Part shown: positions 22,455 through 32,717 of the stretch, one piece after another | Numbering within the stretch: position 1 is the stretch's first letter | Layout of the letters: the number at the start of each line of letters is the position of its first letter | Assembly (NCBI RefSeq): GCF_004337705.1 | Contig: NZ_SKBU01000013.1 | Coordinates: 1 to 64,000, forward strand | Reading direction: 5' to 3' | Length of the DNA stretch: 64,000 bases | Source of the DNA: Rubrobacter taiwanensis | Lineage (GTDB): Bacteria > Actinomycetota > Rubrobacteria > Rubrobacterales > Rubrobacteraceae | Notes under the pieces: generated by a model | Told to the model about the DNA's origin: nothing | The model's input: the letters and a program-made list of their open reading frames with translations, nothing else | Databases searched by the model: none | Translations under genes and position numbers: made by a program

Positions 22455-24280
22455 CCACCCTTGGGGGTCAGCAGCACGACCGCCGCCGCAGCCGCCGGGT
22501 AGGCGAGCGTCAGGACCGTGGCGACGAGCCCCGAATCGTTGAGCGCGCCCATCGCCAGCGCCGCGACCGCGCCGCCGAGCATACCGGCTCCGAACGCCGT
22601 GCCGCGCACCCGGAGCCAGCCGGCGCAGGCTATCCCGGCGAAGGCTGCAAAGACGGCGAGCAGCGCCGGGTTCAGGAGGTGTTGGAGGCTCAGAAGCAGC
22701 CTCTGCGCCGCGACCGCCGCGAGGTCCAGCCGGCCGGAGAGCGCCCGGGTACCGTGGGACGCCTCCGGGTCCAGCAGGGCGGAGAGCAAGGATGCCGCCG
22801 CTGCGAGCCCGAGCCCGCCGGCGCTCCAGAGTACGGCTCCTGCCGGACCGTTCCTGCGCATCAGCCCGAGCGTGGCCCCGATCCCGGCCCCGGCCGCCAG
22901 CGAGGCGCCCACGTTCGCTCCCGTGACCGGCAGCCCGAGCACCGGTACGGCCAGGGATCCGGCCACCGCTAGGCTCCAGAAGAGCTGCGGCCGGCGGGCG
23001 CAGAGCGCGCCCAGGCCCACGCAGAGCGCCCCGAGCAGCACGGCCGCGTACTCGTTCCCGATACCGTAGAACCGGGCCCCGTAGGCCGGGTTGAACCCCA
23101 GCGTGCTGTAGCGCATGAGGGCACCGCCGGCGGCGGAGTCGGCTGCTATGGCGAGGGTGGAGATCAGGAACACCAGCGCCAGATGCCCGCTCCACGAGCC
23201 GGAGAGCCGGAGCGCCAGAGCCGCCAAGCCCGCGGCGAACCCCAGCGTCAGGGCAGCCGCGGGTGCGGCGCCGGTCACGGGGAAGGCGGCGGCGAGCAGG
23301 GCCCCTGCGGGCAGTGCGGTGCCGGCGAGTATTGAGTATGCCACCCCATCCCGGCCCCACCGGAGCGCGCTTCCGGCGAGGAGGGGGATGCTCGCGGCGG
23401 CGATCAGAGCCCACACCGCGAACCTCTGCTCCGCTACGAACGCCAACCGCTCCTGCATCCGCTCCACCGGTTCCGGGCCGCCCGGCTCGATGGTCGCCGC
23501 TCTTCCGGTCATCTCCGGCGGGGCGGGGGCGCCGAGCGCCGCGAGCAGCGTCGGCGCTACGTCGGCGCTCGAGATAAGCCCCGCCGTGCGGGTGCCGGGA
23601 GAGTAGAGCGCTCCCGGTTCGCCGTCCGGCTGCAGCAGCGTGAAGGGGGTCAGGTTCGCCGCTCCTTCCGGAGCCAGGGGCGAGGCGACGGCCACCGCGG
23701 CTCCCGCGGCGCGGGCGGCCTCGACGGCTTCGGCCGCCTCCTCCGGACCGGCGGCCTCCAGCGCGATGAAGCCCGCGCCGGCCTCCAGCGCCTCCCCGAG
23801 AATCGCGCCGGGGGGACCCTCCGGGTACCTCAGCGGTACGTTGCCTGCGGAGTCCATGGCTACGAGGAGCGCCCGGTCTCCCACGGCCGCAGCCTTCACC
23901 CCCGATCTCGCGAGCGCGTCGCCCAGAGCTCCGGGGTGCACGGTGGATGCGGGGCCGGTGAACGCCTCTCCGATTCGGGCGGTCGCCCCGGGCAGCTCCC
24001 GGGGGGCTACGGACGTGTCCGCCCGCGCTCCGGCGCCGAGGAAGAGGTAGGGCAGCCGGGGGTCTTGGGGCTTCTCGCCCTGGACGGTGGAGAGGTTCGC
24101 CACCGCTCCCTCCTCGAAGACCGCAGCGAGCTCCGGGTTCTCGCGCACCGCTTCCCAGGAGAGCTCCTCTACCAGCACGAGCACGGCCGGGCGCTCCGGC
24201 GGGGCAGCGGCTGCCGGGTGTGCGGCGCCGGCCAGCAACAGCAGGCAGAAGAGCAGCAGGACGGGGGCTATCTTTCGCAC
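22433..24280 (-). CDS. membrane protein with exported phosphatase-like N-domain
   Basis: A 615-residue protein. A signal peptide (KIAPVLLLFCLLLLAGA) leads to an extracellular domain (about 25-285) with VLVLVEELSW, DPRLPYLFLGAGARAD and SSADVAPTLLAALG, the last resembling the C-terminal DxxPT motif of alkaline-phosphatase-superfamily enzymes. About ten hydrophobic helices follow (295-610). Similar proteins in Firmicutes and actinobacteria are uncharacterised. The first metal-ligand region is not clearly conserved, so activity is uncertain. It is convergent with the PimA-like gene. Confidence 0.6.
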   Translation of the reverse strand: MRKIAPVLLLFCLLLLAGAAHPAAAAPPERPAVLVLVEELSWEAVRENPELAAVFEEGAVANLSTVQGEKPQDPRLPYLFLGAGARADTSVAPRELPGATARIGEAFTGPASTVHPGALGDALARSGVKAAAVGDRALLVAMDSAGNVPLRYPEGPPGAILGEALEAGAGFIALEAAGPEEAAEAVEAARAAGAAVAVASPLAPEGAANLTPFTLLQPDGEPGALYSPGTRTAGLISSADVAPTLLAALGAPAPPEMTGRAATIEPGGPEPVERMQERLAFVAEQRFAVWALIAAASIPLLAGSALRWGRDGVAYSILAGTALPAGALLAAAFPVTGAAPAAALTLGFAAGLAALALRLSGSWSGHLALVFLISTLAIAADSAAGGALMRYSTLGFNPAYGARFYGIGNEYAAVLLGALCVGLGALCARRPQLFWSLAVAGSLAVPVLGLPVTGANVGASLAAGAGIGATLGLMRRNGPAGAVLWSAGGLGLAAAASLLSALLDPEASHGTRALSGRLDLAAVAAQRLLLSLQHLLNPALLAVFAAFAGIACAGWLRVRGTAFGAGMLGGAVAALAMGALNDSGLVATVLTLAYPAAAAAVVLLTPKGGQPRILR

Positions 24281-25476: not shown

Positions 25477-26751
25477 GTGAGTAAAGACCAGCGCACCATA
25501 GAGACCGCGGAGATAATAGCCGTCGGGAGCGAGATGCTGCTGGGCGAGCTGGTGGACACCAACTCCGCCTGGCTGAGCCGGCGGCTCGCCGCGCTCGGGA
25601 TCTCCATCTACCGGCACACCACGGTTGGAGACAACCGGGAGCGCATTACGGCCGTTCTGCGGGAGGCCGCCGCTCGCGCCGACCTCGTCCTCACGACCGG
25701 CGGACTCGGTCCGACCTCCGACGACCTGACGATGGAGTGCCTGGCGCGCGCTGCCGGAAGGGAGCTCGTCGAGTATCCGGAGGCGCGGGAGCACATAGAA
25801 CGGGCGTTCGCCCGGATCGGGTACACCAGCCCGCCGCGGTCTAACTACAAGCAGGCGCTCTTCCCAGAAGGTTCTGCCCTCATCCGCAACCCTTTAGGGA
25901 CCGCGCTGGGGGCGATGGTGGAGCTGGACGGGACGCTCGTCGCCACCTTCCCCGGCGTGCCTGCCGAGATGCAGATCATGTTCGATGAAGAGGTCGAGCC
26001 CGTCATCCGGGCCCGGAGCGCCGGGGGCGTCATCCTCTCGCGCACGCTGTGGTTCGTGGGGATCGGGGAGTCCGCGCTGGCCGAGCGGGTGCAGGATCTC
26101 CTGGACATGTCCGACCCCACGGTCGCACCGCTCGCCGGTCAGGGACGGGTGCGGCTGCGCATAACCGCCCGCGCCGGAACCGAGGAGGAGGCTAAGGAGA
26201 AGATACGGCCGGTGGAGCACGAGATCCTCTCCCGCCTCCGCAAGTACTACTTCGGGGCCGACGACGATACGCTGGAGAGCGTGGTGGGCCGGATGCTGCA
26301 GGAGCGGGGGGCGACGCTCGCGCTGGCCGAGAGCTGCACCGGCGGTCTTCTGGCCAAGCGCTTGACCGACGTGCCGGGCTCCTCCGCGTACTTCAGGGAA
26401 GGCTTCGTCACCTACTCCAACGAGTCCAAAGAGCGCCTGCTCGGCGTCCCGCACGAGCTGCTGGTGCAGCACGGGGCCGTGAGCGAACCGGTCGCCCGCG
26501 CGATGGCCGGGGGCGCGAGGGAGGTGGCCGGCACCGACTACGGCCTCTCGGTCACCGGCGTCGCCGGGCCGGAGGGCGGCACGGAGGAGAAGCCCGTCGG
26601 GCTGGTCTGGATCGGGCTGGCGCACGGGGAGGGCGTCATCACCGAGCGCCTGGATCTCTCCGCCTGGGCGCGCTCGCGGTCCGCCATCCGGGAGCGCAGC
26701 GCCAACCGCGCCTTCGACCTGCTGCGCCGGTACCTTTCTGAACATAATTAA
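25477..26751 (+). CDS. cinA: CinA-family protein (competence/damage-inducible)
   Basis: A 424-residue two-domain protein. The N-terminal MoaB-like domain (about 10-175) carries [20 protein letters not shown] and [13 protein letters not shown], a COG1058 pyrophosphatase type. The C-terminal CinA amidase domain (about 265-420) has [19 protein letters not shown] and [11 protein letters not shown]. Full-length CinA cleaves ADP-ribose and deamidates NMN in NAD recycling. It starts with GTG just after CCGGA and ends TAA. The following bases begin the promoter of the RNA unit. Confidence 0.93.
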
Positions 26752-26767
26752 AATTTTCTTAACGCCC

Positions 26768-26796
26768 TTGTCCGGGTGCGTGGCGGGTAGTACACT
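26768..26796 (+). promoter_or_regulatory. sigma70-like promoter of the orphan RNA unit
   Basis: TTGTCC (26768-26773) and TACACT (26791-26796) are separated by 17 bases, each matching four of six consensus bases. They stand 17-45 bases after the cinA stop, in front of a stretch with no ORF over 22 codons but with strong RNA structure and a terminator. A start of transcription near 26803 is expected. Confidence 0.6.
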
Positions 26797-26802
26797 TCCG
26801 GT

Positions 26803-27030
26803 AGTCGTGAGGCACGATGAAAGGAGGTGATCCAGATCAACGCACCGAGTAGCAGTAGTTGCGGGTGTCTTCTGGGCGAGGTGGTGCTGGCCTAGTCCAG
26901 CGAAAGCCCTGCAGGTCTGGGTCAGCCTCCCGCCTCGCCGGTAGTTGCAGGCGGCGTGCCACGACCAAGGATACCTGCAAGCGCTCGAAGGGTACGGCCC
27001 CCGGGGGATCCGGGGGTCGTTTCTTCTGGC
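26803..27030 (+). ncRNA. orphan structured RNA with 17-base anti-16S segment
   Basis: A transcription unit of about 228 bases with its own promoter and terminator. Bases 26819-26835 (GAAAGGAGGTGATCCAG) are complementary to the canonical 3' end of 16S rRNA over 17 bases, far beyond a normal SD. Two tiny frames cover or follow it: ATG 26817-26852 (MKGGDPDQRTE) and GTG 26827-26895 (22 codons with SSSSCGC). An ATC codon at 26836 in the second frame lies at ideal SD spacing. Stems: 26875-26881 with 26933-26939, inner 26886-26892 with 26920-26926, and 26945-26951 with 26974-26980. No known RNA family was recognised; it could be a leader-peptide RNA, a small mRNA or a ribosome-binding RNA. Confidence 0.55.
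26998..27030 (+). terminator. Rho-independent terminator of the RNA unit
   Basis: A 7-bp all-GC stem (CCCCCGG with CCGGGGG, loop GGGAT, 26998-27016) is followed by TCGTTTCTTCT. The T-rich side is on the plus strand, so it ends the orphan RNA. It lies 19-51 bases from the convergent chaB end but lacks a T tract in that direction. Confidence 0.75.
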
Positions 27031-27048
27031 CGAAGCGGTTTGGCGGCC

Positions 27049-27255
27049 TCAACTCTCCTTGGAGACCCACTTGCCGGTGCGCTCGTCCTTGCGGTACTTG
27101 TTCTTCACCGCGCTCCAGGCCACGCGGTGAGCGCGCTCTTCTTCGCCGTACTGGTCTTCCGCGGAGTTGAAGGCTTCCTTGTAGATCTCCTGCGCGTGTT
27201 TGGGCAGGTGCTCCCGCACGCTGTCGGGCAGGTCGCCGATGTTCTTGTACGGCAT
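27049..27255 (-). CDS. chaB: ChaB-family small protein
   Basis: A 68-residue ChaB-like protein. It opens MPYKNIGDLPDSVREHLPKH, contains AQEIYKEAFNSAEDQY and ends with a charged VKNKYRKDERTGKW segment, matching the ChaB fold named from the E. coli cation-transport locus. Its true role is unclear. The ATG follows AAAGGGGGCGAG. It stands alone: no chaA antiporter is nearby. Confidence 0.88.
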   Translation of the reverse strand: MPYKNIGDLPDSVREHLPKHAQEIYKEAFNSAEDQYGEEERAHRVAWSAVKNKYRKDERTGKWVSKES

Positions 27256-32561: not shown

Positions 32562-32617
32562 CGAACCCTCCCGGAGGTTGCCGAATGCACCGTTTGCCGG
32601 GAAGGCCGCCGCTCTGA

Positions 32618-32698
32618 GCCTCCCTGCGCCGGAATTACCCGGATCAGGTTCAACGGGTCGGTGCCTTCCGGCACCCTCTCAGCCTCGCGGCTCCCCGG
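32618..32698 (-). promoter_or_regulatory. TPP (THI-box) riboswitch
   Basis: On the minus strand the sequence has the THI-box core: GGGGAGCC, GCTGAGAGGG, then GACCCGTTGAACCTGATC, CGGGTAATTCCGGCG and AGGGAGGCTC closing the P1 stem. It lies upstream of thiD and should shut the whole thi operon when thiamin diphosphate is high. In a high-GC actinobacterium control is often by SD occlusion; no clear terminator is seen between it and thiD. Confidence 0.95.
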
Positions 32699-32717
32699 TT
32701 AGCGGTCCTGGAGGGGA

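Follow-up and report, generated by a model that had tools for sequence, protein, structure and literature searches.

A conserved stand-alone RNA of Rubrobacterales complementary to the whole 16S rRNA tail: a probable divergent relative of Ms_IGR-5 that may be translated for the act of translation

The window (the whole stretch of Rubrobacter taiwanensis DNA analysed here, 64,000 nucleotides) carries at 26768-27030 (+) a stand-alone RNA unit of about 225 bases, with a promoter, a structured transcript and a terminator of its own. This unit is conserved within Rubrobacterales, pairs through a Shine-Dalgarno segment (SD1) with the complete 3' tail of 16S rRNA, holds a short frame whose stop codon stands at a fixed distance from a second such segment (SD2), and forms conserved helices. 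On these features we lean slightly towards reading it as the form that a widespread RNA, present in single copy, takes in Rubrobacterales; it would be translated irrespective of its peptide, and would load a ribosome, park it at the stop codon and refold its own 3' domain. Among the roles that the original prediction had offered, that of an RNA holding 30S subunits fits best, in the form of a translated, ribosome-loading or ribosome-holding RNA.

The unit is delimited by the following features:

26768-26796 (+): promoter TTGTCC-N17-TACACT (TTGTCC 26768-26773, TACACT 26791-26796), read from the sequence
about 26997-27026 (+): G+C-rich terminator hairpin followed by a T-rich stretch, from the sequence; GGCCCCCGG...CCGGGGG-TTTTTT is conserved in relatives

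The promoter, correctly noted in the original prediction, starts directly 3' of the stop (about 26751) of a cinA-like gene (25477-26751), and it is kept among relatives as CTTG...TAGTACACT, TAGTAAAAT or TAGTAGAAT, i.e. TAGTA(CAC/AAA/GAA)T. Downstream lies a chaB-like gene (27049-27255), on the minus strand and convergent to the unit. The end of cinA is found 63-79 nt upstream of the RNA at at least 24 loci, where the downstream genes vary; outside Rubrobacterales, synteny with cinA was looked for and is absent. From reading of the encoded proteins, the neighbour is cinA here, gyrA in Patulibacter and an aminodeoxychorismate lyase gene in a mycobacterium. These surroundings bear on the proposal of an attenuator-like leader of a downstream gene. 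The layout of the RNA (a short ORF overlapping strands of alternative, long-range helices, then a terminator) does resemble that of leader-peptide attenuators; however, the convergent chaB faces the unit, which has its own, apparently constitutive terminator with no regulated gene behind it, neighbours differ between lineages, and the ORF lacks a run of any recognised regulatory codon, so that we regard this reading as extremely improbable.

BLAST against 60 relatives detected the unit in almost every member of the family, with E values as low as 1e-43; no other family gave a comparable match. A covariance model built from alignment A2 (R1) retrieved it from 37 family genomes with E values of 1e-45 to 1e-67, in one copy each except for one fragmented assembly; the two family genomes without an R1 match have many contigs, and one of them gave pieces by BLAST. 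Promoter, SD1, helices and terminator are all conserved among these relatives. No publication on small RNAs of Rubrobacter was found in the open-access literature. Rfam models gave no match to the unit at gathering level, the sole such match in the 64-kb window being a TPP riboswitch (32602-32707 (-), 63.8 bits, with thiamine genes close by at about 29-32 kb). Identity as a tmRNA was rejected, as the tmRNA of this genome lies elsewhere (C56) and ARAGORN finds no tmRNA or tRNA-like domain in the unit. Elsewhere in the window, the same program calls a tRNA-Arg (tct) at 24040-24115 (+), which overlaps long ORFs on both strands and is missing from the Rfam list at gathering level, and is possibly a false call.

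The 5' part of the RNA is dominated by its first Shine-Dalgarno segment:

26819-26835 (+): SD1, GAAAGGAGGTGATCCAG, 17 bp, complement of the full single-stranded 16S 3' tail from helix 45 onward

The 16S gene of the same genome (L046) terminates in ...GGTGCGGCTGGATCACCTCCTTTCT, and SD1 is the exact complement (17/17) of CTGGATCACCTCCTTTC, the 3' tail of this rRNA; CTGGATCACCTCCTTTC begins at the first base past the helix-45 stem, so the pairing spans the whole single-stranded tail. The 17-base match reported in the original prediction is therefore exact for the organism's own tail; it is also conserved in the family, and a chance SD-like match was rejected on both grounds. Besides SD1, the single perfect match found for the 17-mer in this genome is the antisense strand of the 16S gene. 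No site in the 64 kb is predicted to pair more strongly than SD1, whose duplex with the tail has -33.3 kcal/mol, the window averaging -9.0 (s.d. 3.4) and two ordinary SDs giving -7 and -11 kcal/mol. In the GGTGGTCC form, one A-U pair of the duplex becomes G-U, and pairing along the tail is retained (-30.8 kcal/mol against the tail of this genome). SD1 is mostly open in the predicted fold, with a mean unpaired probability of 0.65.

A frame opens immediately downstream and contains the second segment:

26836-26895 (+): mini-ORF INAPSSSSCGCLLGEVVLA, near-cognate start ATC, 19 codons, stop TAG at 26893-26895
26878-26884 (+): SD2, GAGGTGG, inside the ORF; its GAGG ends 11 nt before the stop and 8 nt before the last sense codon

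Among 35 distinct Rubrobacterales sequences, all start with AUA or AUC, 8 nt past GGAGG (9 in one relative), and all 35 frames are open to a stop at the same place. The product is IDASSSSRGYLLGEVALT and variants of it (INAPSSSSCGCLLGEVVLA in the window copy), 18-19 codons long; the changes in length are multiples of three, which counts little because they are located in an AGT repeat. The original prediction had proposed two tiny frames. Its 22-codon frame is open and its stop is the conserved one (35/35), but the functional start is more likely ATC 26836 (19 codons) than GTG 26827, which lies inside the SD, the start of homologues lying 8-13 nt past the SD. Its 11-codon frame, from ATG 26817, was discarded, since the ATG is absent in relatives and the frame is not conserved.

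The frame lies within a set of helices that fold the 3' part back onto it:

26811-26816 (+): 5' strand of H1, GGCACG, pairing with 26955-26960; pseudoknotted with H_A; 5/6 pairs invariant
26860-26870 (+): 5' strand of H_A, within the mini-ORF, pairing with about 26969-26979; 100% of cells paired
26874-26884 (+): 5' strand of H_B, covering SD2, pairing with about 26930-26939; 97.4% of cells paired
26888-26895 (+): 5' strand of H_C, covering the stop codon, pairing with 26917-26924; 99.1% of cells paired
26917-26939 (+): 3' strands of H_C (CTGGGTCA) and H_B (CCGCCTCGCC), partners of 26888-26895 and 26874-26884
26950-26960 (+): GGCGG-CGTGCC, including the 3' strand of H1; nearly invariant in relatives
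26969-26979 (+): 3' strand of H_A, GGATACCTGCA, partner of 26860-26870

The structured, terminated unit of the original prediction is borne out, with a conserved terminator and a predicted minimum free energy that beats all 200 shuffles (z -4.05). Over 27 sequences, 98.9% of the cells in the four helices are paired, versus 32-45% in slid controls, and 5 pairs show changes on both sides (two of them in H_A) versus 1.6 in shuffles (0/500). The support per helix is moderate, as many pairs never vary; the outer pair of H1 varies AU/GU/GC across relatives. SD2, H_A and H_B are predicted to be closed (unpaired probability about 0), SD2 being fully paired in the ground state. GGCGG (26950-) could alternatively pair with CCGCC 26930-26934; the corresponding hairpin, CCGCCT with AGGCGG (26930-26955), was rejected, as it is always possible and shows no covariation.

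The same layout extends beyond the family. When read, weak R1 matches from further actinobacterial families turned out to be genuine (GAAAGGAGGTGGTCC...GGAGGTGGC...TAG); two of the six outside the family (L080, L084) looked like chance. A pattern search retrieved, from many families, a full-tail SD1, a start 8-13 nt on, 10-19 codons, an SD2 (GAGG) and a stop 11 nt further; in the scan of named genomes it occurs in Acidimicrobiia, Patulibacter, Conexibacter, Tsukamurella, Gordonia and Acidobacteriota (Bryobacterales, Terriglobia). Nine acidobacterial loci (L135, L147, L151, L162, L164, L177, L178, L180, L192) show SD1, mini-ORF, SD2 and a stop at +11; their products end in ...R(P)REVADC or REVAGS, and terminator-like, G+C-rich hairpins lie downstream.

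One sequence from outside the family (L086) passes the gathering score of Rfam Ms_IGR-5 (RF02471), whose model matches 84/396 actinobacterial genomes at E <=0.01 (34 over the cut-off), nearly always once per genome. A family exists where the original prediction had recognised none, although its model misses the window copy: it gave no match in the Rubrobacterales genomes searched, none in the window above the gathering threshold (45 bits), and none on 26700-27060 at E up to 10. Ms_IGR-5 is known from mycobacteria and streptomycetes and is transcribed in both Streptomyces and mycobacteria (PMC8079986, PMC8780764, PMC10454040). Like the window RNA, it is a short, single-copy, stand-alone RNA with a full-tail SD near its 5' end and a terminator, a frame of about 12 codons, a stop 11 nt past GAGG, and long-range helices from the middle of the ORF and from SD2. 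SD1, a start 8-13 nt on and a frame open through GAGGTG are present in 35/35 Rubrobacterales and 29/30 Ms_IGR-5 sequences; these frame, stop-register and long-range-helix criteria for Ms_IGR-5 were found here and are not stated by Rfam. Two long-range helices occur in it: one joins its SD2 region GGUGGCUGC to GCAGYCACC (98.7% of cells paired, double changes in 3 pairs), the other joins GGAC, within the ORF, to GUCC of the terminator loop (87% paired, 14 cells with changes on both sides, 0/500 shuffles). In Rubrobacterales, H_A and H_B are placed in the same way with respect to the ORF. For Acidimicrobiia, 100% of the cells in the SD2 helix are paired and 20 double changes are seen; a pairing of SD1 with downstream CGGACCACC was set aside there, as despite 93.6% of cells paired its covariation is hardly above shuffles and the supported partner is SD2. 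The structure drawn by Rfam for RF02471, filed as non-coding, contains neither long-range helix nor the ORF; the two covarying helices missing from it are seen at the Ms_IGR-5 loci L235-L264, and the entry could be revised.

A model built without Rubrobacterales (R2) finds the window RNA at E 5e-4 in 64 kb through a partial alignment; antisense 16S scores 1e-3. Over its own genome, the window RNA is the top match (E 0.023), mostly through SD1, with the antisense 16S close behind. For several relatives, the alignment covers almost the entire length (1e-5 to 2e-4 in 52 kb). Rubrobacterales copies differ from Ms_IGR-5 in their 18-19 codons, AUA/AUC start, extra H_C, H1 pseudoknot and 3' sequences. 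Its score places the window RNA outside RF02471; its anatomy, with SD1, the frame, the register of the stop, two helices and a stand-alone unit, suggests that it works like Ms_IGR-5, and we consider it a probable, divergent, Rfam-invisible relative, a kinship that sequence alone does not prove.

The position of the stop is nearly constant. It lies exactly 11 nt past GAGG in 35/35 Rubrobacterales, 78/79 other pattern matches and 30/30 Ms_IGR-5; over the 144 sequences from two phyla, part of which were gathered by a pattern requiring SD1 and SD2 but not start, frame or stop, the stop is at +11 in 143/144 and a start in the same frame exists in 142/144. Deviating relatives have the stop at +10 (L079 and L096/L082) or +13 (L081 and L083). 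An AUG, GUG or UUG located 8-13 nt past SD1 and open through SD2 is in the frame of the stop in 93/109 sequences (64/79 non-Rubrobacterales and 29/30 Ms_IGR-5), versus 0/109 in the other two frames. With the stop at +11, the last sense codon is therefore 8 nt from GAGG, and 8 nt is the usual distance of an SD from the P-site codon. The conserved motif at the end of the ORF could nonetheless be retained for helix H_B alone.

Such regularities weigh against the idea of a decoy or storage RNA, in which SD1 would merely sequester free 30S subunits and the ORF would be incidental. Complementarity to the complete tail goes far beyond the needs of initiation (-33 versus -7 to -11 kcal/mol), and SD1 is accessible and near the 5' end, as a decoy would have it; yet a decoy needs neither the stop at +11 from SD2 nor the same-frame start, and we hold it to be unlikely.

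Start codons, for their part, vary inversely with spacing. At 8-9 nt from SD1, none of 64 is AUG (mostly AUA, AUC, CUG and UUG); at 10 nt, they are mostly GUG or UUG; at 11-13 nt, 45/58 are AUG. Without Rubrobacterales, the contrast is 0/29 (8-9 nt) versus 45/58 (11-13 nt). The Fisher value of 5.5e-22 is overstated, as the sequences are related. It looks as if the rate of initiation were tuned.

A micropeptide gene, with a product of 12-19 residues (...EVAxx) as the functional molecule, would also explain a conserved frame, the recurrence of E-V-A and R-T residues in Actinomycetota and of E-V-A in Acidobacteriota, and the ribosome footprints on a mycobacterial homologue. In M. abscessus and M. 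smegmatis, Ms_IGR-5 is reported to carry such footprints, though the authors caution that those on ncRNAs can stem from other, non-ribosomal ribonucleoproteins (PMC4974804). However, pN/pS of the frame in Rubrobacterales is about 0.94, the conserved residues are only those spelled by conserved RNA motifs (SD2, GAGGTGGC, and the helix strand GGAC account for the recurring ones), the other residues and the length vary, and many lineages have weak start codons. The pN/pS value argues for geometry rather than peptide: the peptide itself is under no visible selection, the position of the frame being conserved instead. The micropeptide mRNA of the original prediction, understood as encoding a functional peptide, is judged quite unlikely.

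We thus return to a translated RNA that loads and parks a ribosome, whose cycle may be described as follows. SD1 would capture a 30S subunit along the complete 16S tail, and initiation would take place at the weak, well-spaced AUA or AUC codon, if that codon is used in vivo. In the predicted fold, SD1 is open and SD2 closed, so that a ribosome would have to load at SD1 and read the frame before SD2 is uncovered; in reading about 19 codons, it would unzip H_A and H_B, which otherwise hide SD2. Once the ribosome stands at the stop codon, SD2 would be spaced optimally from the P site and in register to rebind the tail, and this spacing suggests that the terminating ribosome, or its 30S subunit, may be held there. 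A held ribosome would presumably keep the 3' domain refolded, with possible effects in trans.

This last step meets another explanation, that of an sRNA acting in trans through its 3' domain, by pairing with mRNAs or by binding a protein, with translation controlling only its folding or stability. Consistent with it are the independence of the unit, which has a promoter and a terminator of its own, the conserved C-rich 3' strands, which could mask SDs, and the overlap of the ORF with the 5' strands of both helices. Taken by itself it seems improbable to us, and it is compatible with the loading and parking of a ribosome, of which it could be the output step.

Other systems share single elements of this layout. 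At loose thresholds, the best Rfam match is CC2171 (RF01867, a Caulobacter sRNA; E 0.068, 18.4 bits), driven by GAAAGGAGGTGATCCAG and below the gathering threshold (75 bits). CC2171 begins with the same GAAAGGAGGTGATCCAG, and most of its loci that were read have an ATG, GTG or TTG 7 nt past GGAGG with an open short frame; in contrast, these frames have 18-32 codons with mostly canonical starts at 7 nt and no consistent GAGG-to-stop spacing of 11, and shared 3' helices were not seen. As the stop register is not shared, we treat CC2171 as an analogue and keep it apart. Its alphaproteobacterial loci (L267-L274, L276-L280) combine a full-tail SD with short frames such as MSHCHYLRTSEAATWILASGEVSAA and MSHSHRRVGSLAVETQVGVGLLA, and this 'sRNA' may be a micro-mRNA too. 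Sites of the infC/ccpN type likewise associate extended SD pairing with a near-cognate AUA/AUU start, but drive ordinary proteins, whereas the window RNA has no downstream protein gene. In S. aureus, initiation at AUA/AUU behind an extended SD reaches about 10-30% of the AUG level; initiation at such sites is weak and, for ccpN, depends on the medium (PMC13009471).

More broadly, though with less assurance than we place in the account of the window RNA, these relatives may form a class of RNAs in Actinomycetota and Acidobacteriota that are translated for the act of translation itself, with full-tail loading, a tuned weak start and parking at the stop through SD2, and that would report or buffer the state of initiation and termination in the cell. 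In any case, Ms_IGR-5, without an assigned function in the literature found, gains a testable anatomy, that of a frame-locked mini-ORF between two SDs, and the link extends to Rubrobacterales, missed by the Rfam model, and to Acidobacteriota. If parking is true, these RNAs would show in nature both an SD that acts at termination and a start-codon strength balanced against spacing, open to measurement in laboratory strains such as M. smegmatis or S. lividans.
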